This document shows, one piece after another, positions 31,394 to 63,266 of a stretch of DNA of 64,000 nucleotides. The stretch spans positions 62,001 to 126,000 of the forward strand of contig NZ_CP100357.1 in assembly GCF_024204665.1 (NCBI RefSeq), written 5' to 3'. The notes below the pieces were generated by a model. The model did no database searches. It saw nothing but the letters and a program-made list of their open reading frames with translations, and was not told where the DNA came from. Position numbers and translations under genes: made by a program. Position 1 is the first letter of the stretch. Each line of letters begins with the position of its first letter. Source of the DNA: Natronosalvus rutilus (GTDB lineage Archaea; Halobacteriota; Halobacteria; Halobacteriales; Natrialbaceae).

Positions 31394-31947
31394 GATTCAT
31401 CCATCTTACCGACGGTACTAATAACCTTAGATTATCTTATTGAAGTATTTCTCTTGGATGCTAGATAGCGATTTCAATACATAGAAATAGTAAGGAGAGT
31501 GTATTCAGCCGAGTATTAACGCCGCGAGGAGATTGTTTTCATCACTCTAATTCGCTGGAAAGCCCTGACACAATGACTCTAACAGCTATGCTGAAACCCT
31601 TGACCAATGATAAGTGTCTGTGACCGTGCTGAATACACAGCGCGAATGTGCCACGAGGCGAGAGACGATCAGTAGGGGGTGGCGATCGATCAGTACAGAG
31701 CGTAAACTTCGCACCTATGCGTATCCGGCTGTTCTATCCCAGTCACCCCCGTCATAGAGGTTACTCTCTGACAGTAGCAACTGATACCGTGAACTCAATT
31801 TTATGGGGAAGCATCAACCTCACCGCCAGTGAAGATCGACGATGGCACGCCACTTTCGATGCCTACCTCGCAAACGAGGCACTTCTGTGTATCCCTGTTA
31901 CTACATTCGCAGAGACTATATCGCATCTAAGAGACGAATTGGATAGA
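31394..31947. other. divergent intergenic region with repeat left end
   Basis: The first 90 bp are AT-rich and should hold the promoter of the leftward transfer operon (TTATTGAAGATAATC-like sequences near 31425). From 31584 it contains a copy of the repeat family in left-end orientation. The rest, up to the TauE/SafE start at 31948, is an open frame without acidic bias and is not considered coding. Confidence 0.45.
31584..31697 (+). repeat. repeat family, left-end orientation with extended right flank
   Basis: It begins AGCTATGCTGAAACCCTTG, has TGATAAG, then the core GTGCTGAATACACAG...GAATGTGCCAC at 31626-31654. The flank follows, with GATCGATCAGTACAGAG at its end (31680s), shared with copies at 37530 and 47234. 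It marks the boundary between the repeat-free transfer block and the repeat-rich accessory half. Confidence 0.6.
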
Positions 31948-32727
31948 ATGTTCGATTTTTCATTTGGGTTCCCGCTCATCATATTGCTTGTGGGGATCGC
32001 GTTTCTCTCTGGTATTGGTGGTACTACAGTTGGCCCAGGAGGCATTTTTCTGACAATTTCGTTATATTCACTGACACCAATTTCGTCGGGCACGGTTGCA
32101 GGAACGGCACACGCCGCCTTCATTGCGACTGGTCTCGTCGGGAGTGCTGCGTACGTTCACTCTGGAGAGATGAAAACCGGCGATGCACGCGCGATGGCGC
32201 TTATACTCAGTCTCTCAAGTATCATTGGGGCCCTCATCGGCGCGTACGTGAACTCTTTCGTCCCGAGAACGATCTTCGGACTCCTGCTCGGTGTCGTTGC
32301 GATGGCGACTGGTATCACTATCGTTTATCGTGAACGGCGCGGTCTCAGTCCACTGTACCAGCTGGATGCGGCAAGACGAGAGGGGCAGGTCGTCCTCGGC
32401 GTCTTGGGATTCGCTCTCGGAATCACCAGCGGATTATTAGGTGTCGGGGGTCCTGTGATCGCAGTTCCGGCGCTGATCCTGATTGGCGTCCCGATGTTGC
32501 TGGCTCTCGCGGTCGCTCAGGTGCAATCGATCTTCATTGCAACGTTCGCAACCACCGGATACCTCTTCCAAGGCAACGTGTCGCTGCCACTCGCAGTATT
32601 AGTTGGGCTACCTTTGCTCGCAGGCGCCGTTGTCGGATGGAAGGTGGCTCACCTGGTTAACCCTGCTAAATTAAAAGTGGCATTGGGTATTGTTCTCATC
32701 GTCGTCGGGCCCTATCTCGCACTGTAA
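31948..32727 (+). CDS. TauE/SafE-family anion permease
   Basis: A 259-residue membrane protein with about eight TM helices. Two repeated halves start with glycine-rich motifs (GIGGTTVGPGGIFLT near residue 21 and GLLGVGGPVIAVP near 165), the signature of the TauE/SafE (DUF81) family that exports sulfite or organosulfonates. Substrate cannot be told from sequence. The ATG at 31948 (MFDFSFGFPLI) is chosen; the long upstream extension has no acidic or TM character. It is flanked on both sides by repeat copies. Confidence 0.85.
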   Translation: MFDFSFGFPLIILLVGIAFLSGIGGTTVGPGGIFLTISLYSLTPISSGTVAGTAHAAFIATGLVGSAAYVHSGEMKTGDARAMALILSLSSIIGALIGAYVNSFVPRTIFGLLLGVVAMATGITIVYRERRGLSPLYQLDAARREGQVVLGVLGFALGITSGLLGVGGPVIAVPALILIGVPMLLALAVAQVQSIFIATFATTGYLFQGNVSLPLAVLVGLPLLAGAVVGWKVAHLVNPAKLKVALGIVLIVVGPYLAL

Positions 32728-32756
32728 TTAACATCTGCTCAATACGCAGCCGAATG

Positions 32757-32950
32757 TATCGGTTGGTTCCGACCTGAGATTGTGAAACAAACGAATTTGC
32801 TGTGCTGCATCTATCCTCTGTATGTAGCAGCCCCGAACTGACAGTGTCACGATAGTCTGTTGAACTGGTGCTGCATACACAGCGCGAATGTTGCACGGGC
32901 TGAGGAAGGATCAACGCGGAAGGTCAAACGCTCAGTATAGGTAAAGGACT
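32757..32950 (+). repeat. head-to-head paired dyad with both flanks
   Basis: A left flank (TCGGTTGGTTCCGACCTGAG..) leads into an inverted core (32802-32830), a conserved spacer (CCCCGAACTG ... GATAGTCTGTTGAACTG) and a direct core (32868-32896). The right flank (GTTGCACGGGCTGAGGAAGG...) is almost identical for about 60 bp to the one at 35982. It lies between the converging 3' ends of the TauE and ArsR-like genes. Confidence 0.65.
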
Positions 32951-32980
32951 TACCGCATCGGTATGCTCAGTACAGAGTGT

Positions 32981-33370
32981 TTATCGGTTCATCTGTTCCA
33001 GAAACTCGTTAACGGGTTCTTTTTCCAATGCTTTGACGGTTTCGAGAGCAGATGTTAGATCGTCGCAAAGCGGAGTCGGTGTTATTGCTTTGGTCTCCTG
33101 ATCGTAGTCGACCAGATGGAAATCAACCAGTCGTGGGACAACACTGTGATGAAGCATCAGTTTGTCACTACTACTGTCAAAATAGTCATTGATCTCTTCC
33201 AGATGAACAGTCCCTCCCCTTTCCGTTAGGAGATACAGTACGTAACGAGTCTGTTCGTTGGCAAGGTGCTGGAAGAAATCATCGAGATCTATCGGAAGAT
33301 CAGTTGAGGACATGGAACCCGAGACTATGGCGTCGACAGTACCAGCGTTCGACTTGTTATCAGTTCCCAT
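32981..33370 (-). CDS. DUF7344-like ArsR-type regulator
   Basis: A 129-residue protein starting MGTDNKSNAG (ATG at 33368-33370). The winged-helix core is FFQHLANEQTRYVLYLLTERGGTVHLEEINDYF...VVPRLVDFHLVDYD, typical of the haloarchaeal DUF7344 group, followed by a C-terminal helix. It probably acts as a dimeric DNA-binding regulator. It is monocistronic and isolated between repeats and the TrmB gene. Confidence 0.75.
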   Translation of the reverse strand: MGTDNKSNAGTVDAIVSGSMSSTDLPIDLDDFFQHLANEQTRYVLYLLTERGGTVHLEEINDYFDSSSDKLMLHHSVVPRLVDFHLVDYDQETKAITPTPLCDDLTSALETVKALEKEPVNEFLEQMNR

Positions 33371-33650
33371 AACAAAAGACAGGCGACGTAGAACTGGTAA
33401 ACGCTTTTCCAAGCAGGTTTGGCTGTGAGGATACGGGTGAATCAGAGGAGATATTTAGAAGAGATTCTCGGTCAGTACAGGTTGTAGACTAAACAAGGGC
33501 CAAATGGCAATCACAAAATCACACAATCATAACTGTAGTGACCGTCAGGTTCAGCCGATAGAGAGCGAACGAAACGTGGGCGTTGTGATCAGCACAGAGT
33601 CTGTAGTCATCACTCTGTTCGCACAGTTTGACCCGGGAACCGCTGACTGG

Positions 33651-34469
33651 CTACCTCACCGGGTTCGCCACGGGGAGCAGACCCGAGGAGATTATCCGGC
33701 GAAGGAGGACGACGATACCGTTCTCCAGGCCGTTGGCGAAGACCGCCTGTTCGTATGAGTCGTCGGGGTCGGCGTCCGGGTAGAAGGAACTGACCAGCAA
33801 CGTTGTGCGGTCAACCAACAGCAGGCGGCTGATGGCAACCTCGTCGTCGCTCGCGGGCCCCAGGAGCCAGTCCAGTTCGGTTTCGAACACCTTCACGGAT
33901 GGCAGCTCGGTCCCGAGCTTGGCGATGATCGCGTCCGTCTCACCACCGATGATCACGTCGACGCCGCGGTCTACTGCGTCGTGGAGCCGGTCGTACAACG
34001 CCTCCGTCAGAAGTTCCTCCTCGACGACCAGCAGGACAATCTCCGATTCGGCGTCCGCCAGCAGATTGTGTGTCCGGGCCTCGATGCCATCATGGCCGGA
34101 CAGCGACCATACCTCCTGCATTCGGTCGCTGTCGTCATTCTCCGGCTGAAGATCGAGCGCTTCGAGGTGTGACTGAAGGGTGTCGATCCGCGCGTCGTAC
34201 TGCTGACGCAAGATCGCGGTTGCCTCCTCGATGCTGACCGCGCGAAACTGCTGGGGGTTCGAGTGCTGCACTTCGACCAGCCCCTTTGACTCCAGCACTC
34301 GGACAGCGTCGTACACCCGGGTCCGAGGTACCTCTGAGATCGCGCTGATTTCCTTGGCGGTCCCCGTCGAGAGTTGGGTCAATGCCAGGAAACTCCGCGC
34401 CTCGTACTCCTTCAGCCCAAGGTCCTGTAACAGATTCACCGTCCCGGTTTTATGTTGCTGAGCTGTCAT
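33651..34469 (-). CDS. TrmB-family transcriptional regulator
   Basis: A 272-residue protein. The N-terminal TrmB winged helix (LLQDLGLKEYEARSFLALTQLSTGTAKEIS...VPRTRVYDAVRVLESKGLVEV) is followed by a coiled segment and a C-terminal phospholipase-D-like ligand domain (RTHNLLADAESEIVLLVVEEEL). TrmB proteins usually respond to sugars or metabolites; the ligand here is unknown. It heads left of two more regulators but is separated from the zinc-ribbon gene by only 12 bp, so partial co-transcription is possible. Confidence 0.85.
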   Translation of the reverse strand: MTAQQHKTGTVNLLQDLGLKEYEARSFLALTQLSTGTAKEISAISEVPRTRVYDAVRVLESKGLVEVQHSNPQQFRAVSIEEATAILRQQYDARIDTLQSHLEALDLQPENDDSDRMQEVWSLSGHDGIEARTHNLLADAESEIVLLVVEEELLTEALYDRLHDAVDRGVDVIIGGETDAIIAKLGTELPSVKVFETELDWLLGPASDDEVAISRLLLVDRTTLLVSSFYPDADPDDSYEQAVFANGLENGIVVLLRRIISSGLLPVANPVR

Positions 34470-34481
34470 TAGGTGGTCCTG

Positions 34482-34712
34482 TCATGTCCGACTGGTTGAG
34501 AGGGCTAATTCACGCTCGGTCGGGATTTGGGTGACTGACTCTCCACACTTCGAGCAGGCATCCATCTCCTCGCTGATGTACGTCGTCTCACAGGCAGGGC
34601 ACGAATACAGAGCCGACGTGACTTTATTCTCGGAATCGTGACGAGAGGCCGGTGACTCGGCCTGTGTGCGCCCACCGAGCCGGGAGAGCAACGTGCGGAG
34701 ACGCCGGCTCAT
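34482..34712 (-). CDS. small zinc-ribbon protein
   Basis: A 76-residue protein (MSRRLRTLLSRLGGRTQ...). A basic N-terminal helix is followed by a two-pair zinc ribbon, CPAC...CSKC. It lies 10 bp downstream of the DUF7344-like gene and forms an operon with it. Haloarchaea pair such HTH and zinc-ribbon proteins often; the basic head suggests RNA or DNA contact. Confidence 0.65.
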   Translation of the reverse strand: MSRRLRTLLSRLGGRTQAESPASRHDSENKVTSALYSCPACETTYISEEMDACSKCGESVTQIPTERELALSTSRT

Positions 34713-34722
34713 TGGGTTATGG

Positions 34723-35073
34723 CTACACCGCGGCCAGTTCGTTTTCGTGATCTGCCACCAACTGAAGTAACGGCGCGTTCTCGTCGAAGTTGGGTCCTCG
34801 CCGAATCGTGTGGGTGTCCGCATCCCACTCGATATAGCCTGCCTCGGTGAGTTTGGGTAGGTGTACATGATATAGGGCCGTGCGTATCTCGGAGAGGGTG
34901 GCGTCGTCGACGGTGTCCGGGTCACTGTCGGTGTGCCAAGCAGCAACCCGAGTGGCGAGGCGATCGAAGGAGACTGAAGTCTCCTGCTCGTCGAGGTAGT
35001 ACAGGACGCATCGACGAACGGAATCTGCCAATATACTGAACGTATTGGTTACCGCCTCGGTTGATTCGTCCAT
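34723..35073 (-). CDS. DUF7344-like ArsR-type regulator
   Basis: A 116-residue winged-helix protein (NTFSILADSVRRCVLYYLDEQETSVSFDRLATRVAAW...LPKLTEAGYIEWDADTHTI), the same group as the gene at 32981. It is first in a two-gene unit with the zinc-ribbon protein. The promoter should lie between 35074 and 35130, which is AT-rich (AACAATTATCTGG on the minus strand). Confidence 0.75.
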   Translation of the reverse strand: MDESTEAVTNTFSILADSVRRCVLYYLDEQETSVSFDRLATRVAAWHTDSDPDTVDDATLSEIRTALYHVHLPKLTEAGYIEWDADTHTIRRGPNFDENAPLLQLVADHENELAAV

Positions 35074-35236
35074 ACCGTGGCAAGGATGTGCTAACGGATA
35101 AGGTCTGTTACCCAGATAATTGTTACATTTGGAAAATCCAACCTAAGCCGATTGTCGGTGGAGATATTGAAACTCGAGTATGGATCGAGGGCCTATAGAA
35201 GCAGGATATATTTGAAAATTTCAAGCGGTTCCCCAA

Positions 35237-35758
35237 CTATCCTTGATCGGTGACTGACCCGTCGTCGGTGTCGTCGTCCTGATCCGCGTCGGGGCCCGTC
35301 CGTGGATAGAAGTGATCCCATGACTGGACCTGCGTCTCGGAGATAATCTCGGAGCTGTTGATCGTCATGCCCAAGCCCGCCAGTTCGTTGCGGATCTCTT
35401 CGATCTCCCTAACCGTGCCGGCGACGACCTCGACGTGGACATTCCGTTCGCCCCCAAGCAAATCGCGGGTGGTCACCACACCGCGAACGTCGAGGATCTG
35501 TTCGGCCAGCGATTCCAGGTCATTCGGATCGACCGTGCAAACGAACATGACGTGGAGGGGGTAGCCCGCTTCCTCGTAGTTGATCTCGGGGTGGTAGCCT
35601 CGGATCACGCCCGTACCTTCGAGTTTGTCGAGGCGGTTCCGGACCGTCGTTGAGGTCACATCCACCTTCTCGGCGATCTCCGTATCGGTCTGGCGGGCGT
35701 TAAGCTGGAGTTGGTGCAGGATGCTCCGGTCCACGTCGTCGAGTGGATTGTCGTCCAT
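35237..35758 (-). CDS. Lrp/AsnC-family transcriptional regulator
   Basis: A 173-residue protein. N-terminal HTH (DDVDRSILHQLQLNARQTDTEIAEKVDVTSTTVRNRLDKLE), then the RAM/AsnC ligand domain (HVMFVCTVDPNDLESLAEQ...VVTTRDLLGGERNVHVEVV). The ATG at 35756-35758 (MDDNPLDDVD) is chosen; the upstream frame runs into the repeat element. The C-terminal acidic tail is typical of haloarchaea. It may sense an amino acid. It stands divergent from the 36129 gene with a paired repeat in between. Confidence 0.85.
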   Translation of the reverse strand: MDDNPLDDVDRSILHQLQLNARQTDTEIAEKVDVTSTTVRNRLDKLEGTGVIRGYHPEINYEEAGYPLHVMFVCTVDPNDLESLAEQILDVRGVVTTRDLLGGERNVHVEVVAGTVREIEEIRNELAGLGMTINSSEIISETQVQSWDHFYPRTGPDADQDDDTDDGSVTDQG

Positions 35759-35894
35759 ACGGTGTCCTTGGACGGCGCGACTGAAAGTCCGCACGGGCCC
35801 TTCATTAGTAGATTGAAGCAGTCTGTCCGCTAACTCCGCAGGTCTATTGACCGGCTGATTCAGCAGAGGATGTCCACAACAGACAAAGCCAGCT

Positions 35895-36050
35895 TGCTGT
35901 ATCCACTCTCTGTATGCAGCAGCCTCAAGCTGCCAGAAAAACGATAGTCTGCTGAGTTGGTGCTGCATACACAGCGCGAATGTTGCACGGGCTGAGGAAG
36001 GATCAACGCGGAAAGCCGAACGCTCAGTATAGATAATAGACGTTACGCCA
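35895..36050 (+). repeat. head-to-head paired dyad with right flank
   Basis: Cores at 35895-35922 (inverted) and 35960-35988 (direct) are separated by the conserved spacer with AGAAAAACGATAGTCTGCTG. The right flank matches the copy near 32890 for about 60 bp. This is the only one of the five pairs that lies between diverging genes (Lrp and the 36129 gene). Confidence 0.65.
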
Positions 36051-36128
36051 GTTCAGAAGAATAGAGAGTCTGTCTTGTAACCCAGATAATCACACCAAGG
36101 ATAAGTCACTGTAGCCTGTAGTGAAACC

Positions 36129-36335
36129 ATGAACTATTCTGTAGAACCTGAGTATCCGTTTCTATCCCCTCAAGCAACTATCGAATGTACCGACTGTCAA
36201 AGTGAGGATGGAAAAGTGACTAAAGTAACATATGAGAGTGGGAAGATCGATTGGGCATTCGTTTGCGAGGACTGTATCAGAGAGTACGTTATGAATTCGA
36301 ATATTGCTGAAATCGACCGTGTACGGCTATTGTGA
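36129..36335 (+). CDS. small CxxC protein
   Basis: A 68-residue protein with CTDC near residue 20 and CEDC near 46, one zinc-ribbon site. The C-terminus is a short helix (IREYVMNSNIAEIDRVRLL). It is AT-richer than its neighbours. The region upstream contains a repeat element, so the promoter may derive from it. Function unknown. Confidence 0.6.
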   Translation: MNYSVEPEYPFLSPQATIECTDCQSEDGKVTKVTYESGKIDWAFVCEDCIREYVMNSNIAEIDRVRLL

Positions 36336-36502
36336 GATTTGTCTGTAAGCGTTCGTATGTAGCGATTGGTCTCTTTCTGAAACGGCGAAATAAATGGGCT
36401 GGCCGTACTGTATACACCCTCTGTGCGGATTGACGGAGTCCTTCGTCCCCTCCACATTGTTCCATGGAAGAGTTTTACAATCAGTACGACATCGTTCGAG
36501 TC

Positions 36503-37159
36503 ATGGCGACTGAGGCGACCTTCACCGTTCCATCCGATCAGTTCCCCCTCGGCACCGTCTTCACCCAACTTCCGGACGTGACGGTCGAACTGGAGCGACT
36601 GATCCCGTCACAGGACGTGGTGATCCCCTACTTCTGGGTCCGAGGAACGGAAGTTGACGACATCGAGGCGGCGTTTGCTGCCCACCCGGGTGTGAGGGAT
36701 ATCCAACTCGTCGATTCCGTCGAGGACGAGTATCTCCTGCGCGTCGAGTGGTCGCTCGAGTACGACGACGTGCTGAGCGTACTAACCGAGACCGGCGTTC
36801 CGCTCATCAAAGCAACCGGCACGAGCCGTCGGTGGACGTTCGACATTCGCGGGGACACGCGAAGCGATCTTGCAACCTTTCAATCTCGCTGCCGAGAGTT
36901 AGAGATCCCGGTCACACTGACGGAACTGCACGCCCTGACGCCGGTTGAGACCGGAACCGAGGCAGCACTCACTGACAAGCAACAAGACACACTGGTGTTC
37001 GCCCACGAGCGTGGGTACTTCGAATCCCCGCGCGAGGTGACGATGGAAGAACTCGGCGACGAACTCGGCATTTCCCAGCAGGCCATCGCGTCTCGACTCC
37101 GCCGGGGGATCAAACACACCCTCGGAAGTACCCTCCCCGAAACAGTGGAGTCGAAATGA
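36503..37159 (+). CDS. Bat-type HTH_10 transcriptional regulator
   Basis: A 218-residue protein starting MATEATFTVPSDQF. The N-terminal 150 residues form the bacterio-opsin-activator-type sensor region (FPLGTVFTQLPDVTVELERL...). The C-terminal HTH_10 is clear: LTDKQQDTLVFAHERGYFESPREVTMEELGDELGISQQAIASRLRRG. An in-frame upstream ATG at 36464 is possible, but the duplicate at 44083 aligns only from MATEATF. It probably controls genes in this accessory half. It is the intact parent type of the broken copy at 43.7-44.5 kb. Confidence 0.85.
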   Translation: MATEATFTVPSDQFPLGTVFTQLPDVTVELERLIPSQDVVIPYFWVRGTEVDDIEAAFAAHPGVRDIQLVDSVEDEYLLRVEWSLEYDDVLSVLTETGVPLIKATGTSRRWTFDIRGDTRSDLATFQSRCRELEIPVTLTELHALTPVETGTEAALTDKQQDTLVFAHERGYFESPREVTMEELGDELGISQQAIASRLRRGIKHTLGSTLPETVESK

Positions 37160-37228
37160 GAAGGTGCTTAAAAACCCATTGGATACCCAAAAATAGCGCT
37201 GACGGAAGTACCCGTTGAAGGGATACTC

Positions 37229-37411
37229 ATGCCCAATGGAGAGAGCACACGGACAATTGCCACATGTGTCGATTGCGGAGTTGCCTATGCAGCGGAGCAA
37301 TGGCCTGACGGCACGGCACAACCGATTGGGGCGAGAAACGGGTGTCAATGCGGATCAACCGAGTTTCAGGCCGTCAAAAAGACGAGTACTACGGGTTTCC
37401 GTGACGACTGA
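37229..37411 (+). CDS. small zinc-ribbon protein, family with two others here
   Basis: A 60-residue protein with CVDCG near residue 13 and GCQCG near 39. It is clearly related to the proteins at 42245-42409 and 62319-62507, which share the order RTIA.C..CG..YAA...PDGT..PIG...GC.C. It lies downstream of the Bat-type gene and just before a paired repeat. Function unknown. Confidence 0.65.
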   Translation: MPNGESTRTIATCVDCGVAYAAEQWPDGTAQPIGARNGCQCGSTEFQAVKKTSTTGFRDD

Positions 37412-37466
37412 GTTGACAAACGAGTGGGCTACTGAGCAGACCGAGGAAATACGCCACACTATCGTG

Positions 37467-37601
37467 GTGAACTTATTCTCTGTATTCAGCAGCCCCGAAC
37501 TGCCAGAAAAACGATAGTCTGCTGAGCTGGTGCTGCATACACAGCGCGAATGTCGCACGAAGTGAGAGCCAATCTGGATGGGGGTGATCGATCAGTACAG
37601 A
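37467..37601 (+). repeat. head-to-head paired dyad with extended flank
   Basis: Cores at about 37467-37492 (inverted) and 37530-37558 (direct), spacer with AGAAAAACGATAGTCTGCTG, then a right flank ending GATCGATCAGTACAGAG that matches 31654-31697 and 47262-47309. It lies between the converging 3' ends of the zinc-ribbon and M24 peptidase genes. Confidence 0.65.
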
Positions 37602-37630
37602 GGAAGGGTGGAACAGAGCATGTAGAAGCG

Positions 37631-38806
37631 CTACATAACGCCGAGTTCTCGGGAATAGTCAGTCAAGTTCTCATAGCCTGTCTCGGTCACCACGACGAGG
37701 TCTTCGAGGCGGACTCCGCCGATTCCCTGTTCGTACAACCCAGGTTCGACCGTGACGACGTGACCGGGCCGTAGCTCCCCGCCACCCCAGCTGAGCTTCG
37801 GCTTTTCGTGGACGTCAAGCCCGACGCCGTGGCCGGTGGCGCTCGTGAAGCCGTCCTCGGTGGCCTCGTCGGTCCGGAGCGTCGGGTACCCCTCGCGCTC
37901 GAACACGTCGCAGACCGCCTCGTTCACTGCCTCGCCGGTCACGCCAGGCTGGATGGTTTCGAGCGCCGTCTCATATGCCTCCCGGGTTACCTCGTACCAC
38001 TCCCTGACTTTTGCATCGGGTTCTCCCTTCACGAACGTCCGGGTAACGTCCCCAAAGTACTGTGACTCCTTGTTACGCGGGAAAATATCGACGATGACCG
38101 GGTCACCTGCCGATATCGGACCCGTCCCGACCGCGTGCGCCGTGGCCCCCTCTGCCCCAGAGGCGACGATGCACTCGTCCAGCGCACAGCCCTCCTCCAG
38201 CAGTGTAACTTCGATAGCCCGGCGGACCCGCTCGCTGGTGAGCACCTCCCCGTCCAAGTGCAGGACCCCCGACTCGACCGCCGCGCGTTCAAGCATCCTC
38301 TCGGCGACCGCCATTGCGCTCTCGTTCGCCCGCTGGGTCTCCCTTATGTGTTCGATTTCCACCTCGGTTTTCAGTGCGCGGATGTCGCCGACCGTATCGT
38401 CGTAATCGGTGACGACGTTAACGCCGTGGGCGCGCAGGACGTCGGCGGCGCCGTTCGGGAAGGAGGCCGGTACCGACACCGAGTCAATGTCGTTCTCGGC
38501 GAGAAACTCTGTCGTCACGATGGGGCCGGCTCTCGCCGGCCCGTGTTCGAGGACCTTGCTCCCGTAGTCGAACTCTGAGAACCGTCGCACGCTGTCGCCG
38601 TCGCCTTCGGTGTTCGCCCGCGCGTACGCCATGTCAGGGACGAGCAGGCGTACCTCCCCGTTGACGTACAGGGTGACGAAGTTCCCCATCGCGCGGAAGC
38701 CGGAGAGGTAGTACTGGTTGCTGTCCTCGCCGTCGGCGTTAATCAGATACCCGTCGGTTCCTGCCTCGTTGAGATATGTCGTTAGCTGTGGATAAGCGGG
38801 AGCCAT
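37631..38806 (-). CDS. M24-family Xaa-Pro peptidase
   Basis: A 391-residue protein. The N-terminal creatinase-like domain (residues 1-150) precedes the pita-bread catalytic domain with the dinuclear-metal ligands visible in order: VIVDIFP (Asp), FGDVTRTF (Asp), TGHGVGLDVHE (His), TVEPGLYE (Glu) and RLEDLVVV (Glu). It should be a cytoplasmic aminopeptidase removing the residue before proline. It is monocistronic, flanked by repeats. ATG at 38804-38806. Confidence 0.9.
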   Translation of the reverse strand: MAPAYPQLTTYLNEAGTDGYLINADGEDSNQYYLSGFRAMGNFVTLYVNGEVRLLVPDMAYARANTEGDGDSVRRFSEFDYGSKVLEHGPARAGPIVTTEFLAENDIDSVSVPASFPNGAADVLRAHGVNVVTDYDDTVGDIRALKTEVEIEHIRETQRANESAMAVAERMLERAAVESGVLHLDGEVLTSERVRRAIEVTLLEEGCALDECIVASGAEGATAHAVGTGPISAGDPVIVDIFPRNKESQYFGDVTRTFVKGEPDAKVREWYEVTREAYETALETIQPGVTGEAVNEAVCDVFEREGYPTLRTDEATEDGFTSATGHGVGLDVHEKPKLSWGGGELRPGHVVTVEPGLYEQGIGGVRLEDLVVVTETGYENLTDYSRELGVM

Positions 38807-38944
38807 GGAGCGAAATTGATGGAATCAAGGAATAAACCTAGTTGAATATAGTTATCAAGTGACACCTTGTACGGTGCTAACCACCAGTTTCCGAGGGTAA
38901 GACTACGGGCGATGTATGAACGTCTGAATAGTACATTCGCAGCG

Positions 38945-39022
38945 TCTGTATCGGTTGATTCCAACCAGGGATTGTGAAACAAATGAATTTGCTGTGCTGC
39001 ATACATCCTCTGTATCTCGCAC
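38945..39022 (-). repeat. single dyad with left flank
   Basis: The flank TATCGGTTGATTCCAACCAG...AAACAAATGAATTTGCT is followed by the core GTGCTGCATACATCC..TCGCAC (38994-39022). The same flank precedes the copies at 32802 and 63200. It lies between the diverging peptidase and hydrolase genes. Confidence 0.6.
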
Positions 39023-39193
39023 GACGGTCATCGCAATTCAAGCGGACCCTCTGCTTCGGGAACGTAGACATCTCGTCGAATCGCGGGAAAAGTTAACATC
39101 CCTCGTGATGTATGGGGCTCCAACATTCGTCGGTATCAAGCGGGAGGTGCGGTGGCTGTACCGACGAATTTACAGCAATAGGGAGGACTAACT

Positions 39194-40129
39194 ATGGCAA
39201 ATCCAACACAGCAGGATGTAAGCCAAGTCGTCTCGGAGGAGTTACGCTTCCGGTCAGACGACGAGGAGTGTGCCGCCACGCTGTATCGTCCTGACGGCAT
39301 CGAGGACGTCACCCCCTGTGTTGTGATGGGTAACGGCTTCAGTCTGACCCGCCGCGACGGGTTGCCCCGCTTCGCCGAACGCTTCGTGGACGCGGGAATC
39401 GCGACACTGACGTTCGACTTCCGTCACCTCGGGGACAGCGACGGTGAGCCCCGCCAACTGGTCGACTACCAGCGCCAGCGCACCGATCTCGCCGCCGCGG
39501 TAGACTTCGCACGAACGCTCGAGGGAATCGGCGCCGACCGGATCGCGGTGTGGGGATTCTCGTTCGCCGGCGGGCATGTCGTCCACGTCGCGGCGCACGA
39601 CGACTGGCTGGCGGCGGCTGTCTCGATGTTCCCGATTCTCGATGGCCTAGCGCTGGCGCGGGAGTACGGCCTACGCAACAACGCGCGGTACATGGCCGCT
39701 GCGGTCCGCGCCAGTGTAGGCCGACGGCCAATCCAGATGGCCGTGACGGGACCGCCCGGGGCACCGGCGATGCTGACGCAGCCGGAGGCGGAGCCCGGAT
39801 TCGACGCCGTGTGTGCCGAGGACTCGCGCTGGCGCAACGAATTCCTCGCCAAGCCGAGCCAACCCATCGTGGAGATTCGCCCGATACGCGAGGCATCCAA
39901 CGTCCGCTGCCCGCTGTTACTCTGTCTTGGGACCGAGGACACGATAGCGCCAGTCGGGCCGATTGAGCGAGCCGCCGACCGTGCACCGCAGAGCGACTTG
40001 CGTCGCTACCCTATCGGACACTTCGACGGGTTCCACGATGCGTTCGAAGAAGTGGTCAGCGACCAGATTGATTTCCTCGACCGCCACCTTGTACCGTCCC
40101 CTCGGCCTGATCGATCGCGTATACAGTAA
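39194..40129 (+). CDS. alpha/beta-hydrolase
   Basis: A 311-residue alpha/beta-hydrolase-fold protein. The nucleophile elbow is GFSFAGG near residue 123. The acidic residue is in LGTEDTIAP near 246 and the catalytic histidine in RYPIGHFDGFH near 277. A lid of helices lies between residues 150 and 220. It resembles dienelactone-hydrolase/acetyl xylan esterase-like enzymes; the substrate is unknown. It stands alone between repeats. Confidence 0.85.
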   Translation: MANPTQQDVSQVVSEELRFRSDDEECAATLYRPDGIEDVTPCVVMGNGFSLTRRDGLPRFAERFVDAGIATLTFDFRHLGDSDGEPRQLVDYQRQRTDLAAAVDFARTLEGIGADRIAVWGFSFAGGHVVHVAAHDDWLAAAVSMFPILDGLALAREYGLRNNARYMAAAVRASVGRRPIQMAVTGPPGAPAMLTQPEAEPGFDAVCAEDSRWRNEFLAKPSQPIVEIRPIREASNVRCPLLLCLGTEDTIAPVGPIERAADRAPQSDLRRYPIGHFDGFHDAFEEVVSDQIDFLDRHLVPSPRPDRSRIQ

Positions 40130-40248
40130 CACTTCGGCAAGAACGACCGAGCGTGCTCCGTATCGATGATTGACGTGGTGACCGCGATAGATTCGCGAAG
40201 ATACTGAGCCTGGTTCACTGCCATCAACAAGAACCGAACGAAACTGGC

Positions 40249-40343
40249 GTGTTGAACCCATTCTCTGTATGCAGCAGCCCCGAACTGACAGTGTCACGAT
40301 AGCCTGCTAGGCTGGTGCTGCATACACAGCGCGAACCTTACAC
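40249..40343 (+). repeat. head-to-head paired dyad
   Basis: An inverted core (40249-40277) and a direct core (40315-40343) are separated by the conserved 37-bp spacer (CCCCGAACTGACAG...CGATAGCCTGCTAGGCTG). It is almost identical to the pair at 32802-32896. It lies between the converging 3' ends of the hydrolase and DUF1579-like genes. Confidence 0.65.
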
Positions 40344-40419
40344 AGTTGAACGGTTTGTACACGGTGATAGCGGGGTACGCTATGTAACAGCCTTTGGGGG
40401 GTACCACCAGTCTCGCTTT

Positions 40420-40914
40420 CTACGCTCCAGTTCTCGTGTAGGTTACGTCGAAATCTACCTCCCAGTCAACCCCGTCATCCGAGTATTCCCACGTACCCTC
40501 GATCACGTTGGCGTCGTCGTCGAAGTTGCTCGTGAAGCGTTGTGAGAACTCAGGTGCATCCCTCCACAGTCTCCAGACCTCATCGCTCAAACTCATCTTG
40601 TACATCCGGAAGACGTCGCGTGAATCGGCGTAGAGCATCCGAAACTGCTCGCTCGTATTGTCCAAACCGATGACCGAGACGGTAGAGCGCGGCGCGTTCT
40701 CGACCCACTCAGGAGGCAATGTCGAAAGATCGCTTACCTCCGAACGTTGTACGAGGAAAGCTCCGTCTTCTAGCCATTCGAATGTCACGTGTCCGCCCCT
40801 GTACGTTTGCCCATCCAGAGACACCTCAAGTTCCCATTCTCCGATGAGCCGGTTGAGTCGTTCGAGGTCCGGATTTCGACTCGGCGTTCGACCGTTCGCT
40901 TCTTCGTTCGACAT
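40420..40914 (-). CDS. DUF1579-like lipocalin-fold protein
   Basis: A 164-residue protein. The segment LERLNRLIGEWELEVSLDGQ, followed by alternating beta strands (GGHVTFEWLEDGAFLVQRSEV ... SVIGLDNTSEQFRMLYAD), matches the small beta-barrel pattern of DUF1579/heme-binding-like proteins. It may bind a small ligand. It is monocistronic between two repeat copies. ATG at 40912-40914. Confidence 0.75.
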   Translation of the reverse strand: MSNEEANGRTPSRNPDLERLNRLIGEWELEVSLDGQTYRGGHVTFEWLEDGAFLVQRSEVSDLSTLPPEWVENAPRSTVSVIGLDNTSEQFRMLYADSRDVFRMYKMSLSDEVWRLWRDAPEFSQRFTSNFDDDANVIEGTWEYSDDGVDWEVDFDVTYTRTGA

Positions 40915-41003
40915 GGTACTCGTAGTTCGCGAGCGATTTACCTAACTATTGTCCGCGATGGACGATTAGGGAAATTGATCTCACCAGTAGGGTATTCCGC
41001 AGT

Positions 41004-41067
41004 ATTGCACTCATCTTCTGTATCCAGCGGGTACCTCCTATCAATGTCCACGGGCTTCAACAGAGCC
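41004..41067 (-). repeat. repeat family, right-end copy
   Basis: A degenerate core (TGCACTCATCTTCTGTATCC) runs into TATCAATG and ends in GGGCTTCAACAGAGCC at 41067. On the minus strand this outer end reads GGCTCTGTTGAAGCCC, the same terminus as cassettes A and B. It could pair with the left end at 31584 to bound a larger unit. Confidence 0.6.
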
Positions 41068-41220
41068 ACTCTAACCACAAAGCAGAGACAACGAAAGTAT
41101 ATCGTGAAACGAAGAATCTCAGCAAATCGCTTTGCTTTATCTATGCGAGACATGATAACTATCGAGTCCAATCTGGATTGAAGCATAGAATTTTAAGCAT
41201 TGGTACTAGGATGGAAGCAT

Positions 41221-42793: not shown

Positions 42794-42953
42794 TCAATTC
42801 GTGCGTGAACTGAGACATTGGTTTCATTGATTTCGTTCGAGAAGATGTGGACCTCGAATGGTCAGATGATCAGCACAGATAAAGAAGTCATCTCGCCAAT
42901 GGTTGTCTACCCGACACTGGCTTCAGAGCGTGTTCTGGACCAGCTCCGGCTAC

Positions 42954-47233: not shown

Positions 47234-47310
47234 CTGCTGGATTCAGAGCACGAATGTCGCACGAAATGAGAGCCAATCTAGATGGGGGTGGTCGATCAGT
47301 ACAGGTGGTA
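47234..47310 (+). repeat. single dyad with extended right flank
   Basis: A degenerate core TGCTGGATTCAGAGCACG..TGTCGCACG is followed by the flank (ATGAGAGCCAATCTAGATGG...GATCAGTACAGG), which matches 37551-37601 closely. It lies between the kinase and the SPW protein, which are read in the same direction. Confidence 0.55.
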
Positions 47311-48616: not shown

Positions 48617-49046
48617 CGAAACGCCGGTTGACCGGCCAGTCTATTGAGGCTATGTGAATTAAACGACGGTGCTGTGCTACACGTATCCTCTGTATTGATC
48701 ATATGACCGTTCGAGATCCACATCTTCTCGGACGAACGAAATCATTGAAACGGCACTGTCTAGTTAAACGATTCTGACGTAGAACAGCGTTTCAGTGACT
48801 GTCGTATCCCTACCAATGTATCTGCGGGTCTCAATTCGTCTGAGACGTTTGCTGAAACAGATGAGTTTTCGCTGCTCATGGAACGGAATCTCTTTGTGTC
48901 AGATCATCGTTGGTGTTTTCACAATCGACGCTGTCACTCTCTCGTCGTTCTGCCTTGCGCTTTCCCTTATACAGACAGTACCAATGCAACCACTGTCTCA
49001 GTTCACGCGCGAAGTGAACATACTCGATACTGCGTTTCGCTTGAAA
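48617..49046. other. convergent gap with a degenerate dyad
   Basis: A dyad core (GTGCTACACGTATCCTCTGTATTG, 48674-48700) lies 58 bp after the HalOD1 stop. The rest is AT-rich with an open frame whose product (cysteine- and leucine-rich, few acidic residues) does not look haloarchaeal. No gene is called. Confidence 0.45.
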
Positions 49047-49812: not shown

Positions 49813-49929
49813 CACTCACAGTTCCAGCACCCTATAGCGTAAAACCGGGGCTGGAATAGGCAACCGTTCACTGAACACCCAATACTGAGTAATCACCCTT
49901 TCCCATATGATCGCCCACTGACTTCTGCC

Positions 49930-49992
49930 CGTTCTCCCTGTATTCAGCCCGGTCGTTGAAATTTATCAACGATTGAGAGTTTCAACAAAGCT
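49930..49992 (-). repeat. repeat family, right-end copy
   Basis: CTGTATTCAGCCCGG is followed by TATCAACG and ends GAGAGTTTCAACAAAGC near 49992. On the minus strand the outer end reads GCTTTGTTGAAACTC, again the IS6-like terminus. It separates the Csp unit from the permease unit. Confidence 0.55.
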
Positions 49993-54141: not shown

Positions 54142-54147
54142 TTAGCG

Positions 54148-60416: not shown

Positions 60417-60511
60417 GTGCTGAACTCATTCTCTGTATCTCGCACGACGGTCCTGACTGTATTCTGGTAAGACATTTAGACAATGCTGAATACACAGCGC
60501 ATATCGGTCAC
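60417..60511 (+). repeat. two dyad cores between diverging genes
   Basis: The first core (GTGCTGAACTCATTC..TCGCAC, 60417-60445) is preceded by a flank resembling the one at 38945 (TAGCGGTTGGTTTCGGCCTG). A second, direct core (TGCTGAATACACAGCGC) lies at 60483-60511. The spacer differs from the five standard pairs. It lies between the DUF2270 and PiT genes. Confidence 0.55.
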
Positions 60512-60669
60512 TGATCTTTGAGCAACCCGTGTGGAGACGAATCGGTAGAGACTAGTGGGACTTCAGTTGTGAAGTGCTAAATCTTCGTGTTACTGTGTCT
60601 ATCGGTCGTAGCCAACAGTTCAGCAGCGAAACGGCACTATTTTTTCGCGTGCGAACCGAGCACACGCAC

Positions 60670-61929
60670 GTGGCAGAATTACTAATTCTCGTGGGATTGC
60701 TGGTGGCGGTGTTCGTCGGGTACAATATCGGCGGGTCATCAACCGGTGTTGCCTTCGGTCCGGCAGTTGGCAGCCGGGCCGTCAGAAAAGTCACTGCCGG
60801 GACACTGTTTACCGTGTTTGCGTTCCTCGGAGCGTGGACGATTGGACGGAAGGTCATCACGACGATGAGTACCGAAATCGTCGATGCAGCAGCCTTTACA
60901 CCCGCAGCGAGCGTTGGTGTCCTCTTTTTTACCGGGCTCGCACTCCTGATCTCGAACCTCTACGGTGTCCCGGCGTCAACCTCGATGACAGCCGTCGCAG
61001 CAATCGTCGGACTCGGATTGGCAACGGGGACGCTCAACACTGCGCTGATGTTTACCATCCTGTCGGCATGGATCGTCGCCCCACTGATCGCCGTCTTCAC
61101 AGGTGCGTTTATCGGCAGATATCTGTACCCGCACCTTGACGCCAAATTCGAATTTGGTCGCCTTACGAACCCGTTGATCGCAATCGATACCCAGGGGAGG
61201 CTCCCACGGCTATCGGTCAACGATAACGTCTCGCCTCGGGATCTGATCGGGTCGGCGCTTGTGGTGGCAATTGCCTGCTACATGGGGTTCAGTGCCGGGG
61301 CCTCGAACGCGGCGAACGCAGTCGCCCCGCTTGTCGGTAACGGTTCCCTTGACCCCAGCCCGGCGATTCTCCTCGCAATCGGGGCCATCAGCGTGGGCGG
61401 CTTCACGATTGCCCGGCGGACGCTGGCGACCGTTGGCAACGATATTACTAAGATGCCGATTCTGGCAGCGCTCATTGTTTCGACCGTGGGTGCGACGATT
61501 ATCACCGTCCTATCGTGGCTCGGAATTCCAGCCAGTCTCGCCGTGAGTACGACCAGTTGTATTATTGGACTCGGGTGGGGCCGTGCAAGCCGAGCGCGGA
61601 CGCTCGCAGAAATAGTCACACAGTCCCCTGCCGATGAATCCGCTCCAAAGTTTACGACTGGTGCACTCAAACTTCACCCAGTTGAAGGCAACAAGGGGGT
61701 CAATTCGGGCCCGACTGTGGGCGAACTCGCTGAAGGCGAGACTCCTCACCCGGACAGACAGCACGCATCCGGGGATGGTGTGTCTAGCATCGGCGAAAAA
61801 GACCCAGAAGAACTGTCCGCCGAAGGCCTGTTCCACCACGCAGCGGCAGCTCGCGTCGTGACACTCTGGGTGATCACGCCGATGATGTCGCTCGTGGGGT
61901 CCTATGCCTTGTTTTCACTCCTCGGCTAA
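60670..61929 (+). CDS. PiT-family phosphate permease
   Basis: A 419-residue protein. The GTG at 60670 (first residues VAELLILVGLLVAVF) is used; the upstream frame is arginine/serine-rich. Two PHO4 signatures are present: YNIGGSSTGVAFGPAVGSRAV near the N-terminus and GFSAGASNAANAVAPLVG near residue 205. About ten TM helices and an acidic cytosolic insert (about 320-395) lie before the last TM helix. It should carry inorganic phosphate with a cation. It stands alone between repeats. Confidence 0.85.
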   Translation: MAELLILVGLLVAVFVGYNIGGSSTGVAFGPAVGSRAVRKVTAGTLFTVFAFLGAWTIGRKVITTMSTEIVDAAAFTPAASVGVLFFTGLALLISNLYGVPASTSMTAVAAIVGLGLATGTLNTALMFTILSAWIVAPLIAVFTGAFIGRYLYPHLDAKFEFGRLTNPLIAIDTQGRLPRLSVNDNVSPRDLIGSALVVAIACYMGFSAGASNAANAVAPLVGNGSLDPSPAILLAIGAISVGGFTIARRTLATVGNDITKMPILAALIVSTVGATIITVLSWLGIPASLAVSTTSCIIGLGWGRASRARTLAEIVTQSPADESAPKFTTGALKLHPVEGNKGVNSGPTVGELAEGETPHPDRQHASGDGVSSIGEKDPEELSAEGLFHHAAAARVVTLWVITPMMSLVGSYALFSLLG

Positions 61930-62036
61930 CAGAACACCTCGTCTGTCCATCGGCCTCAGTCGTGGTCAGAGGCACGCCCATCTACAAGAATCGTGCGCGA
62001 GTGGTAAGGGTTGGCGTCTTTGATATCAAGACCGCT

Positions 62037-62147
62037 GTGCTGACTTGATCCTCTGTATGCAGCAGCCTCGAGCTGCCAGAAAAACGATAGTCTGCTGAGC
62101 TGGTGCTGCATACAGAGCGCGAATGTCGCACGAAGTGGGAGCCAATC
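62037..62147 (+). repeat. head-to-head paired dyad with flank
   Basis: Cores at 62037-62065 (inverted) and 62103-62131 (direct), spacer with AGAAAAACGATAGTCTGCTG, right flank GAAGTGGGAGCCAATCT as at 37560. It lies between the converging 3' ends of the PiT and zinc-ribbon genes. Confidence 0.65.
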
Positions 62148-62318
62148 TCTAAACTGACACTTCATGTTGAGTGAAAACACCTGACATGTACTTATATATT
62201 GTGTGGTTATCTGAGTGAAAGGAACCCTGCACAGTCTATGGTTTGTGTTGCACTTTCTAACCACCGTTCTATTCAGGGAAGACGATACGTTCAAGAAAGA
62301 CCTTGATCAATCAGGTAT

Positions 62319-62507
62319 CTAATCCGGTCCAGTTTCATCGGCTTCGAGCTTCAAAGCTATTTTTTTGAACACGGCATTCTCACACGAACATCCGTTCCTC
62401 CCGATCGGGAGGACCGTTCCATCGGGTTTCTCTCGTGCGGCATACATTGAGCCACACGTCGTACAGAGCGCTATTGTCCGAGTATCTTCCTTACCAGTGT
62501 TACTCAT
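62319..62507 (-). CDS. small zinc-ribbon protein, paralogue
   Basis: A 62-residue protein (MSNTGKEDTRTIALCTTCGSM...). CTTC and CSCE give a zinc site. It shares TRTIA.C..CG..YAA...PDGT..PIG...GC.C with the protein at 37229, so the two are clear paralogues in one window. Function unknown. Confidence 0.65.
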   Translation of the reverse strand: MSNTGKEDTRTIALCTTCGSMYAAREKPDGTVLPIGRNGCSCENAVFKKIALKLEADETGPD

Positions 62508-62673
62508 ACCGTTACACTTCCAGGCCGTAGTAGAGACCGATTCGTGAAGGCATAAAACGTGAACCCGGCAATTTCAGGGCATCATTACAGTTGATTGGCT
62601 GATCGTTATTCACTAACCATTGTGTATCATGCCGTTTGGCTTTATTTATTGCACCGATATTGTGAAACAGATA

Positions 62674-62862
62674 ATGGCAATTGATTCGCCTACCTCCAAG
62701 GCAGAGTTAGCACAAGCGCTCACCACCCCCCTACAAAGCGCATACCGGAACGGTGCAGAAGTTGCTACAGGGAGCTACGCGCAAATCCATCACGATGGCT
62801 CCGACGCCAAATATATCCGAGTCCAGTCCTACTCTGGGACGTGGAACTATGACAGCGACTGA
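62674..62862 (+). CDS. small hypothetical protein upstream of HalOD1
   Basis: A 62-residue protein (MAIDSPTSKAELAQALTTPL...YSGTWNYDSD) with a helix followed by strands. Its 3' end overlaps the HalOD1 start at 62849 by 14 bp, which suggests translational coupling. An upstream TTG/ATG extension is possible. No family is recognised. Confidence 0.5.
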   Translation: MAIDSPTSKAELAQALTTPLQSAYRNGAEVATGSYAQIHHDGSDAKYIRVQSYSGTWNYDSD

Positions 62863-63112
62863 GTCGGTTCAGACGCGATATGATTGGTCGGATGTGGACC
62901 CGAGCATGGCCGTCATCAATGCGCTTGCTTCACTGGAAGACGTACGGCCAGTTAATCTCTCAGACGAAGTGGACGGTACCCTATATGATTTTGTTGACCC
63001 AGAAGCGCTTGATGCACTTGTTACCGACAAGAGCACGATCTCGATTTCGTTCATGATCACTGAGTACGAGGTACACATCGACGGAGACAAGTTGCAAGTC
63101 TATTACGAGTAA
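62849..63112 (+). CDS. HalOD1-domain protein
   Basis: An 87-residue protein (MTATESVQTRYDWSDV...) with the HalOD1 core DPSMAVINALASLEDVRPVNL...LYDFVDPEALDALV...SISFMITEYEVHIDGDKLQV. It is the second gene of a coupled pair. It is closest to the protein at 48296. The output role is inferred from the family name only. Confidence 0.7.
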   Translation: MTATESVQTRYDWSDVDPSMAVINALASLEDVRPVNLSDEVDGTLYDFVDPEALDALVTDKSTISISFMITEYEVHIDGDKLQVYYE

Positions 63113-63153
63113 GAGGGCTATTGGAGATCTCAGCGGTCAGTTCGTATCTGTGT

Positions 63154-63266
63154 GTATCAGTTGGTTCCGGCCTGGGATTGTGAAACAAACGAATCTGCTG
63201 TGCTGCATCTATGCTCTATATGCAGCAGGCACCTCCTGTCAATTTCTAAGTGCTTCAACAAAATCT
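63154..63266 (-). repeat. repeat family, complete right-end copy
   Basis: The flank ATCAGTTGGTTCCGGCCTG..AACGAATCTGCT, core GTGCTGCATCTATGC..TGCAGCAG (63200-63228), then GTCAATTTC and an outer end TGCTTCAACAAAATC (63266). It is the most complete right-end copy in the accessory half and is the last member of the array. Confidence 0.6.

Follow-up and report, generated by a model that had tools for sequence, protein, structure and literature searches.

Oriented end sites, fixed linkers and framed arrays point to a gene-cassette system in haloarchaea

The dyad repeats of a 64,000-nucleotide stretch of Natronosalvus rutilus contig NZ_CP100357.1 (the window) probably belong to a haloarchaeal gene-cassette system, found mainly in Natrialbaceae, in which cassettes bounded by two kinds of site, RE and LE, alternate with 37-nt linkers in framed arrays and would be served by a putative recombinase. 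The arrays follow a common grammar and are enclosed by target duplications, and their cassettes have been replaced between fixed flanks, with homology breaking in the core site.

Each core site is 29 bp long and comprises two 11-bp arms around a spacer of 7 bp, a length based on our own reading of the alignment and on an IS target duplication. At nine places the end of an IS5-like element immediately follows dyad position 18, corresponding to insertion within the 7-bp spacer. The arm GTGCTGMATACAGAG, with up to three mismatches, matched the window 29 times, compared with 1.93 expected and a maximum of 6 in 100 shuffles. A 29-position weight matrix, derived partly from the very window sites that it scored, returned 23 sites at a score of at least 17 and none in any of 40 first-order Markov simulations. 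These data confirm that the dyad repeats are real. Nineteen of the 23 sites lie between 31.6 and 63.3 kb, together with a weak copy at 49922, and none lies between 8.2 and 31.56 kb, in agreement with the original prediction of about 19 copies in the former region and no copy from 8.2 to 31.6 kb. The four remaining strong copies, at 1.1, 2.6, 6.9 and 8.1 kb, are the ends of two single cassettes. The repeats had been described as one dyad; the repeat itself is genuine, but it comes in two types of fixed orientation, RE and LE, often in 66-bp pairs, which have similar outer arms and differ in the inner arms and in the adjoining half of the spacer. The conserved cassette ends, as modelled, measure 77 and 86 nt and each start with the 29-bp core site. 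For three plasmid stretches from relatives a gene table was available, itself described as incomplete; there, 0 of 34 sites overlapped a listed CDS compared with 24.1 expected, consistent with the predicted placement of the copies in gaps between genes.

Each gene unit is flanked by one RE and one LE, both facing inward. Across 57 stretches, 101 of 102 inward-facing neighbour pairs comprised one RE and one LE, and a single pair broke this rule. Outward-facing pairs less than 400 bp apart included 54 spaced by 64-68 bp (50 by exactly 66), all of them LE with RE; the exceptions to the 66-bp rule were nine pairs within 400 bp, including five with spacings of 126 or 127. In many window pairs the 66-bp spacing resolves into LE, 37 nt and RE, and the linker between neighbouring units measured 37 nt in 60 of 64 cases. 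Linkers are bounded by outer arms and alternate with cassettes, and at 53 unique junctions the outer arms matched across the linker at 7.85 of 11 positions, slightly more than the 7.35 of permuted pairs (P 0.001). The longest ORF per cassette ran in either direction (56 versus 45), and regulators were the commonest cargo families. This RE/LE grammar is common to the largest contig of the genome and other Natrialbaceae.

Positions 31584 to 41067 of the window form a single array with about six cassettes, lying inside terminal inverted repeats and a perfect 8-bp target duplication:

31576..31583, left 8-bp target duplication, ACTCTAAC, identical to 41068-41075
31584..31600, plus strand, left terminal inverted repeat of the array frame, starting 42 nt from the RE dyad
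31626..31654, plus, RE, TauE cassette start (score 46.0; R1 65.4 bits)
31948..32727, plus, cargo TauE/SafE exporter (Pfam PF01925; aligned homologous CDS; start set by homologues, the mechanical ORF beginning at 31648)
32802..32830, minus, LE, TauE cassette end (R2 73.5 bits)
32831..32867, 37-nt linker after the TauE cassette
32868..32896, plus, RE, regulator cassette start (matrix and profile match)
33651-34469 and 35237-35794, regulator cargo, TrmB-like and AsnC-type, respectively
35894..35922, minus, LE, regulator cassette end (matrix and profile match)
35923..35959, 37-nt linker after the regulator cassette
35960..35988, plus, RE, BAT/HTH_10 cassette start (cargo ORF 36464-37159)
37464..37492, minus, LE, BAT/HTH_10 cassette end (matrix and profile match)
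37493..37529, 37-nt linker after the BAT/HTH_10 cassette
37530..37558, plus, RE, M24 peptidase cassette start (cargo ORF 37631-38806, minus strand)
38994..39022, minus, LE, M24 cassette end (matrix and profile match), followed by no recognisable linker
39194..40129, plus, cargo alpha/beta hydrolase (Pfam), with no RE above threshold in the site scans
40249..40277, minus, LE, hydrolase cassette end (matrix and profile match)
40278..40314, 37-nt linker after the hydrolase cassette
40315..40343, plus, RE, last cassette start (cargo ORF 40420-40914, minus strand, no Pfam match)
41002..41030, minus, LE, last cassette end (score 31.7; R2 13.8 bits)
41051..41067, minus, right terminal inverted repeat, outer end 37 nt from the LE dyad
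41068..41075, right 8-bp target duplication, ACTCTAAC, identical to the left copy

The rest of the window holds two single-cassette elements, a second array and further sites:

1068..2677, single-cassette element: terminal inverted repeat (TIR), LE 1110-1138, RE 2613-2641, TIR
1320-2585, minus, its cargo, a PQQ propeller ORF
6896..8147, single-cassette element: TIR, LE 6933-6961, RE 8083-8111, TIR
7142-7930, minus, its cargo, a 262-aa ORF with no Pfam match
47234..47262, plus, RE, SPW/HalOD1 cassette start (cargo 47410-47853 and 48269-48616)
48674..48702, minus, LE, SPW/HalOD1 cassette end (matrix and profile match)
49922..49950, minus, decayed end dyad (score 12.2), then a terminal repeat ending at 49992
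60417..60445, minus, LE (matrix and profile match), with no RE partner found in the window site scans
60446..60482, 37-nt linker before the phosphate-transporter cassette
60483..60511, plus, RE, phosphate-transporter cassette start (cargo ORF 60574-61929)
62037..62065, minus, LE, phosphate-transporter cassette end (matrix and profile match)
62066..62102, 37-nt linker, member of repeat family D1
62103..62131, plus, RE, HalOD1 cassette start (cargo ORF 62753-63112)
63200..63228, minus, LE, HalOD1 cassette end (matrix and profile match)
63249..63265, minus, terminal inverted repeat closing the second array, whose opposite terminal repeat was not found

The copies had been proposed to delimit a series of gene units, among them the copper block (50-60 kb), which has no bounding site pair. 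No Rfam families were found in the window.

The frame combines terminal inverted repeats with an 8-bp target duplication, features that typify a non-autonomous transposon. Across 28 frames the summed 8-nt match of the target duplications was 121, a value reached in 0 of 10,000 permutations. We take the frame's terminal repeat to resemble that of IS6-family elements. The inverted repeats around the resident IS6-type genes (GGCACTGTCTAGTT or similar) differ from the frame's repeat, and resident IS6 elements were rejected as frame movers. The 8-bp target duplication is the same as that of the IS6 family (available text of PMC7986276).

When same-genus genomes were compared at the same locus, at least four of seven pairs showed conserved flanks, different cassettes and a break inside the sites, and one pair showed no difference. 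In L124 versus L050, L126 versus L062, L120 versus L052 and L127 versus the window, the flanks were 84-96% identical up to the dyads and the cassettes between them differed in all four pairs. The exchange of cassettes as whole units between fixed flanks was thereby seen directly, bearing out the prediction that the units are cassette-like and could be acquired or exchanged. Where the same cassette end stood in different surroundings (same-inner pairs), five of six pairs had their last mismatch no later than dyad position 13, the remaining site being identical; the exception was window 37464 versus L120:4040, with mismatches up to position 26. Mismatches per position were 0.087 in the outer arm versus 0.320 in the inner arm for 21 same-outer pairs, and 0.195 versus 0.026 for seven same-inner pairs. 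Recombination between the repeats had been predicted, and exchange does occur at the sites, but a site-specific mechanism acting at the dyad explains it better than general recombination would.

It is unlikely that the exchange reflects ordinary homologous recombination between conserved ends, of which the dyads would be just the best-conserved part. Haloarchaea recombine readily, the cassette ends are conserved over 77-86 nt, and the one exceptional same-inner pair is mismatched through the dyad, all of which would suit this explanation; however, the early breaks in the other five pairs argue against it, and it predicts neither the fixed 66-bp spacing nor the linker-slot position of a recombinase gene. 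Independent transposition of the cassettes as cargo-carrying, MITE-like non-autonomous elements, with arrays arising by repeated transposition into element ends, is very unlikely: although single-cassette elements occur and the frames carry terminal inverted repeats as well as 8-bp target duplications, the linker junctions have a fixed length (37 nt in 60 of 64) and no recognised terminal repeat, and the frames stay while their contents change, with breaks in dyads rather than in terminal repeats. That the dyads are regulator or nucleoid-protein binding sites between transcription units is highly improbable, since their palindromic form, their absence from listed CDSs (0 of 34) and the abundance of regulators as cargo are outweighed by cassette ORFs running in either direction, by the pairing of sites as ends, by the lack of sites in the stretch read of four of five out-of-genus plasmids with cargo homologues and, largely refuting it, by exchange boundaries that fall within the dyads.

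The original prediction held that no integrase is present. This is correct for the window, which contained no tyrosine-recombinase match (the sole phage-integrase-family match on its contig, C3, lies outside the window), but arrays of other genomes carry a small tyrosine recombinase; Natrinema salinisoli (LDB05_RS21320) and Natronosalvus caseinilyticus encode it. All five close members found occupy the linker slot, next to outward-facing sites or enclosed by them; three copies have both flanking sites clear and two have one. Three of the five share flanks, the G217 copy has an in-frame stop, and the 19 kb with the G182 copy contain one site. The protein is of the catalytic-domain kind (224-237 aa) and matches PF00589, and its best Foldseek matches were XerA. 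R, K, HxxR, W and Y were invariant in all seven sequences, in accordance with R-K-HxxR-H/W-Y, which we take to be the catalytic residues of tyrosine recombinases. Scores were 46.5-47.4 bits with the archaeal XerA model (cut-off 220) and, for three array recombinases, 19.9-20.7 bits with the integron integrase model TIGR02249 (cut-off 265). Residues and fold identify the array enzyme as a tyrosine recombinase. Matches to it occurred in 12 of 61 genomes, five being partial and three only 37-48% identical; the latter had no sites nearby, nor did the distant full-length relatives L173-L175, and one of the five partial matches (L176) was near sites. The window genome had no match at E 1e-10, so its arrays may be remnants or depend on a different enzyme.

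Two other candidates were rejected. For a 350-aa integrase encoded 8 bp from a frame (L050/L124), sites were found at 3 of the 30 family loci, but two of these are one and the same locus and the other has just one weak site; family members near sites in L116, L117 and L111 came from stretches chosen for their sites. An array-adjacent gene ending ENPIMRYLKRD proved to be a block without a long reading frame or codon periodicity, and Rfam returned nothing for the three block-bearing loci scanned.

Because RE and LE are inverted within a cassette, excision must use the sites of neighbouring cassettes. The acting enzyme, most likely a recombinase of the linker-slot kind, would join RE with RE and LE with LE. 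Recombination of LE with LE (or RE with RE) within one array would release a circle, the presumed intermediate, of one cassette and one linker; its integration elsewhere would add the cassette with its linker, and RE with RE plus LE with LE would swap cassettes. We consider evenly poised the further proposal that archaea evolved a cassette platform of their own, with no descent from integrons, in which a linker-borne minimal tyrosine recombinase moves cassette-plus-linker circles. Heterospecific RE/LE sites would then give integron-like array growth and natural cassette exchange, and transposable frames would spread the platform over Natrialbaceae chromosomes and plasmids.

Like integrons, the present system has small gene units in arrays, the cassettes are exchangeable, and a tyrosine recombinase lies beside some arrays with many arrays lacking one. 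In an attC site, a spacer lies between two inverted simple sites, which pair across it in a folded strand; inverted simple sites surround a spacer at each junction here as well, with the slight excess of outer-arm matches given above. Unlike in integrons, the recombinase falls short in the IntI test (19.9-20.7 versus 265 bits), linker length is fixed, a complete site stands at both cassette ends, cargo runs in either direction, and the arrays lie in frames with terminal repeats. GTTRRRY is the integron core motif; the consensus of the 29-bp site, by reading, contains no GTT. Archaeal integrons have been reported from nine phyla in PMC9668308, the available main text of which has 0 occurrences of "haloarchaea", "Halobact" or "Halobacteriota".

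The Acinetobacter dif (pdif) modules, as described in the accessible portion of PMC13141974, have two 11-bp arms with a short spacer, crossovers within the site, and two alternating module kinds set by which arm is inside; pdif sites are also targeted by insertion sequences (PMC10132070, in part). Arm length, within-site crossovers and IS targeting are shared by the present system, in which two module kinds likewise alternate. It differs in its 7-bp spacer (6 bp in Acinetobacter pdif), in that one module kind is a 37-nt linker or recombinase gene, and in its archaeal host and frame with terminal repeats; XerC/XerD are a pdif feature. The system probably works in the manner of integrons and of the Acinetobacter modules, although its parts are apparently not those of integrons.

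The PATEs and SMRs of Haloquadratum walsbyi are, like the present system, haloarchaeal mobile elements without transposase. PATEs have palindromes near their ends and SMR-A has prominent inverted ends and a size of about 110 bp, and the available text of PMC3119063 mentions no gene cassettes or arrays for either. It describes PATEs as related to IS605-type elements and without terminal inverted repeats or target duplications, so the terminal repeats and 8-bp duplications found here rule out PATE identity.

No dedicated haloarchaeal cassette system of this kind was found in the open-access literature. Haloarchaea are known for free gene exchange, and the arrays may represent a so far unrecognised gene-swap route. 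If so, part of the Natrialbaceae accessory genes (regulators, transporters, hydrolases) would be organised and moved by one site and enzyme, and an integron-like platform would have been built by nature more than once.

The profile scan of relatives suggested by the original prediction was productive: within the class the site profile matched 98 of 194 genomes. The family of the window genome accounts for 47 of these and has three more genomes listed as unmatched. At the level of the phylum, 11 of 148 genomes matched, all within the same order. In the window genome, with 150 of 1153 candidates scored, the RE profile gave at least 55 matches, of which C1, the largest contig, holds 35, C2 holds 7 and the 127-kb C3 holds 13. 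Since most lie on C1, the repeats are not peculiar to the plasmid-sized C3, on which site density is about ten times higher.

The dyad repeat of the original prediction, about 19 copies in a cassette-like pattern, proved to be real and far above chance expectation. The core site comprises 29 bp: two 11-bp arms, the outer one reading GTGCTGMATAC, on either side of a 7-bp spacer. It occurs in two types, RE and LE. The RE consensus (139 sites) has a spacer of about AGAGCGC, variable at positions 13 and 14, and the inner arm GAATGTNGCAC; the LE consensus (130 sites) has a spacer of about AGAGGAT and an inner arm of about GARTGCAGCAC. Inward of both core sites are conserved end regions, which were modelled (RE, 77 nt; LE, 86 nt; alignments A1 and A2, profile models R1 and R2). 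Since these models and the weight matrices were derived from sites of the N. rutilus genome, matches in that genome are partly by construction; the pairing, spacing and linker rules described below were valid also in genera outside the model-building set. A half-site-like TCGNTCAGTACAG was observed in direct orientation 58 to 60 bp inward of the RE site (e.g., window 37588 and 31686 and L059:5448, L numbers denoting fetched stretches of this and related genomes) and is possibly an accessory site.

Site pairs were counted in 57 stretches of the N. rutilus and related genomes, selected for holding RE hits. Of 102 pairs of inward-facing neighbors, 339 to 3,536 nt apart from start to start, 101 combined an RE with an LE. 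All 54 outward-facing pairs within 400 bp joined an LE with an RE at a spacing of 64 to 68 bp, exactly 66 bp in 50 of them. The linker between cassettes measured 37 nt at 60 of 64 junctions (61 stretches), and nearly all of 53 unique linkers carried a TTCTGACAG-like motif nearer LE and CGGTAG nearer RE. The window array has four recognizable linkers for about six cassettes. Nine further pairs within 400 bp were spaced at 126 or 127 bp (five) or at 60, 66 (parallel), 339 (a small cassette) and 359 bp (one each). The same-direction sites 126 to 127 bp apart (L058:6057-6183, L097:4606-4732, L103:5276-5402, L106:2271-2398 and L115:4955-5082), where a conserved stretch like TTACCG..CTATCG..TGCCAAAA precedes the inner site, represent a possible third junction type.

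The longest open reading frame (ORF) ran from RE to LE in 56 of 101 cassettes and in reverse in 45. A Pfam search with 113 of 130 cargo ORFs matched 97 families, the commonest being regulatory (DUF7344, 10; BAT, 9; HTH_10, 9; HTH_24, 6; HalOD1, 5); transporters, enzymes and two TnpB-type proteins were also found. One LE and one RE site flank a TnpB-family RNA-guided endonuclease in Natrialba magadii pNMAG02 (L106:3251-4588).

Cassette exchange was examined in seven pairs of stretches. L124 and L050 represent one locus in two genomes of the same genus. Their flanks agree up to the dyads at 96% and 94% identity, and between them one holds two cassettes and the other a different single cassette. 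L126 has three cassettes and L062 one, and the cassettes of L120 and L052 differ. The two outer flanks and the final cassette are common to L127 and the window, and the five cassettes at 31.65 to 40.25 kb of the window (one without a recognized RE) are replaced in L127 by one other cassette. L128 shares the window flanks outside 1.1 and 8.1 kb, with a single cassette between, and has one flank in common with L053. No difference in cassette content was found between L122 and L059. The same 489-bp cassette was present on two contigs of the N. rutilus genome (L052 on the largest, C1, and L053 on C2) in differing surroundings.

To locate the break in homology, sites alike on one side only were compared. 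Looser thresholds gave 12 pairs alike inside only and 83 alike outside only; stricter thresholds left six same-inner pairs, from four cassettes. In five of these six, no mismatch occurs beyond position 4, 11 or 13 of the 29-bp site; the exception is window 37464 versus L120:4040, where mismatches extend to position 26. Mismatches per position were 0.195 in the outer arm and 0.026 in the inner arm for seven same-inner pairs, and 0.087 and 0.320, respectively, for 21 same-outer pairs, many of which have one repeated flank in common and hence are not independent. The picture from these alignments is of a crossover within the site, in or adjoining the spacer.

The simplest mechanism would be site-specific recombination in which like sites pair. 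Within one array, LE sites are direct repeats of each other, as are RE sites, so recombination between two of a kind would free a circle of one cassette plus one linker. Insertion of such a circle elsewhere would add the cassette together with its linker, which would also explain why frames around single cassettes (terminal inverted repeats with a target duplication) contain no linker. In use the system resembles integrons, and in site anatomy dif modules.

For the enzyme, a 350-aa integrase located 8 bp from one frame was rejected, as sites were found at only 3 of 30 loci of its family. Members of this family (337 to 371 aa) occur near array sites in several genomes (L116:7471-8520, L117:5023-6138, L111:8646-9659 and L124:4155-5207), an association that does not extend to the whole family. 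A 224-aa catalytic-domain tyrosine recombinase of a Natrinema salinisoli plasmid, annotated as a site-specific integrase, lies between outward-facing RE and LE sites (L097), and four close relatives (77 to 79% identical) have the same placement. In L171 and L172 the recombinase has both sites, 823 bp apart; in L169 and L170 one of its sites is clear, and inspection by eye suggests a decayed second one. The copy in L172 (genome G217) contains an in-frame stop, and three of the five close loci have flanks in common. Arrays continue around the recombinase in L097, L181, L183 and L184, and the 19 kb of L182 contain only one site. Full-length relatives at 37 to 48% identity (L173 to L175) had no sites nearby, and one of five partial matches (L176) had sites within 1.3 kb. 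The presumed catalytic residues were invariant in all seven sequences, and both the sequence and the predicted fold (mean pLDDT of 76, seven sequences) were nearest to XerA. The recombinase scored far under the curated cutoff for archaeal XerA and also under that for integron integrase, which makes the integron-integrase test negative. The N. rutilus genome gave no match at an E value of 1E−10.

Among stretches fetched for their sites, a selection blind to insertion sequence (IS) frequency elsewhere, 19 places resembled the IS end GGGCC(G/T)TGTTTAGACGC. Nine of the 19 directly followed site positions 1 to 18. By eye, six further ends followed the complementary half-site (positions 12 to 29), and a decayed half-site preceded one more (L181:10710). 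Two in L131 were outside any spacer, and the L055 match looks like chance. Ends at positions 1 to 18 and 12 to 29 imply that the target duplication would equal the 7-bp spacer. The transposase encoded by full copies, read in L054 and L133, has 283 aa and was tentatively taken as IS5-like. The copies in the spacer are as follows.

L054:9248-10183, IS copy in the 7-bp spacer
L057:4949-5884, IS copy in the 7-bp spacer
L133:2623-3558, IS copy in the 7-bp spacer
L064:4502, short copy of about 142 bp
L116:12310, short copy of about 142 bp

As a parallel, dif and pdif sites are also described as targets of insertion sequences (PMC10132070).

Arrays and single cassettes often terminate in the repeat GGYTYTGTTGAAAYCCT. 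With up to 5 mismatches allowed, 28 frames had such a repeat at both ends, some of which may be wrong. The distance from the outer end of the repeat to the dyad was 36 to 38 nt on one side and 40 to 43 nt on the other in 27 of the 28, the sole exception being window 6896-8147. The 8 nt outside the paired repeats gave a summed match of 121, reached in none of 10,000 permutations, and agreed at 7 or 8 positions in nine frames, which count two loci twice (L050 with L124 and the window with L127). The array at 31584-41067 of the window is flanked by a perfect duplication of ACTCTAAC. Eleven loci have, next to the short-spaced end of the array, a block of about 850 bp with repeated TTCATAATCGGTT motifs and no long ORF; codon periodicity was absent in nine aligned copies.

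L056:986-1843, ORF-less block
L064, L119, L135, L062, L122, L052, L120, L054, L126 and L059, copies of the block, 82 to 89% identical

The right end and flank of the second array (window 63211-64000) recur at L030:401-1179 on C2 with 96% identity. Window 42832-42879 and 48689-48736, in the irregular 41- to 49-kb part, form a 48-bp inverted repeat, 88% complementary.

Literature searches confined to open-access papers turned up no description of such a system; four of five site and repeat strings occurred in none of those papers, and the fifth occurred in a mouse paper. Of 194 genomes of the class, 98 had R1 matches; 47 of these belong to the same family and 51 to other families of the order, 31 of the latter with one match. 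Counts rest on 24 scored candidates per genome, values near 24 being lower bounds. In a phylum sample of 148 genomes, 11 matched, all within the order. Homologues of the cargo lie on other plasmids in Halomontanus (TauE and M24), Haloarcula (TauE) and Haloterrigena (regulators); the stretches read there, with 2.5 kb to either side, held no sites. In Haloprofundus, five sites, including one pair at 66 bp, begin about 180 bp past the TauE copy. The Halomontanus M24 homology spans window 37627-38941, near the inner edges of the modelled ends (37606 and 38937), as if the ends had been added onto a gene, and a piece related to window 32924-33143 adjoins it.
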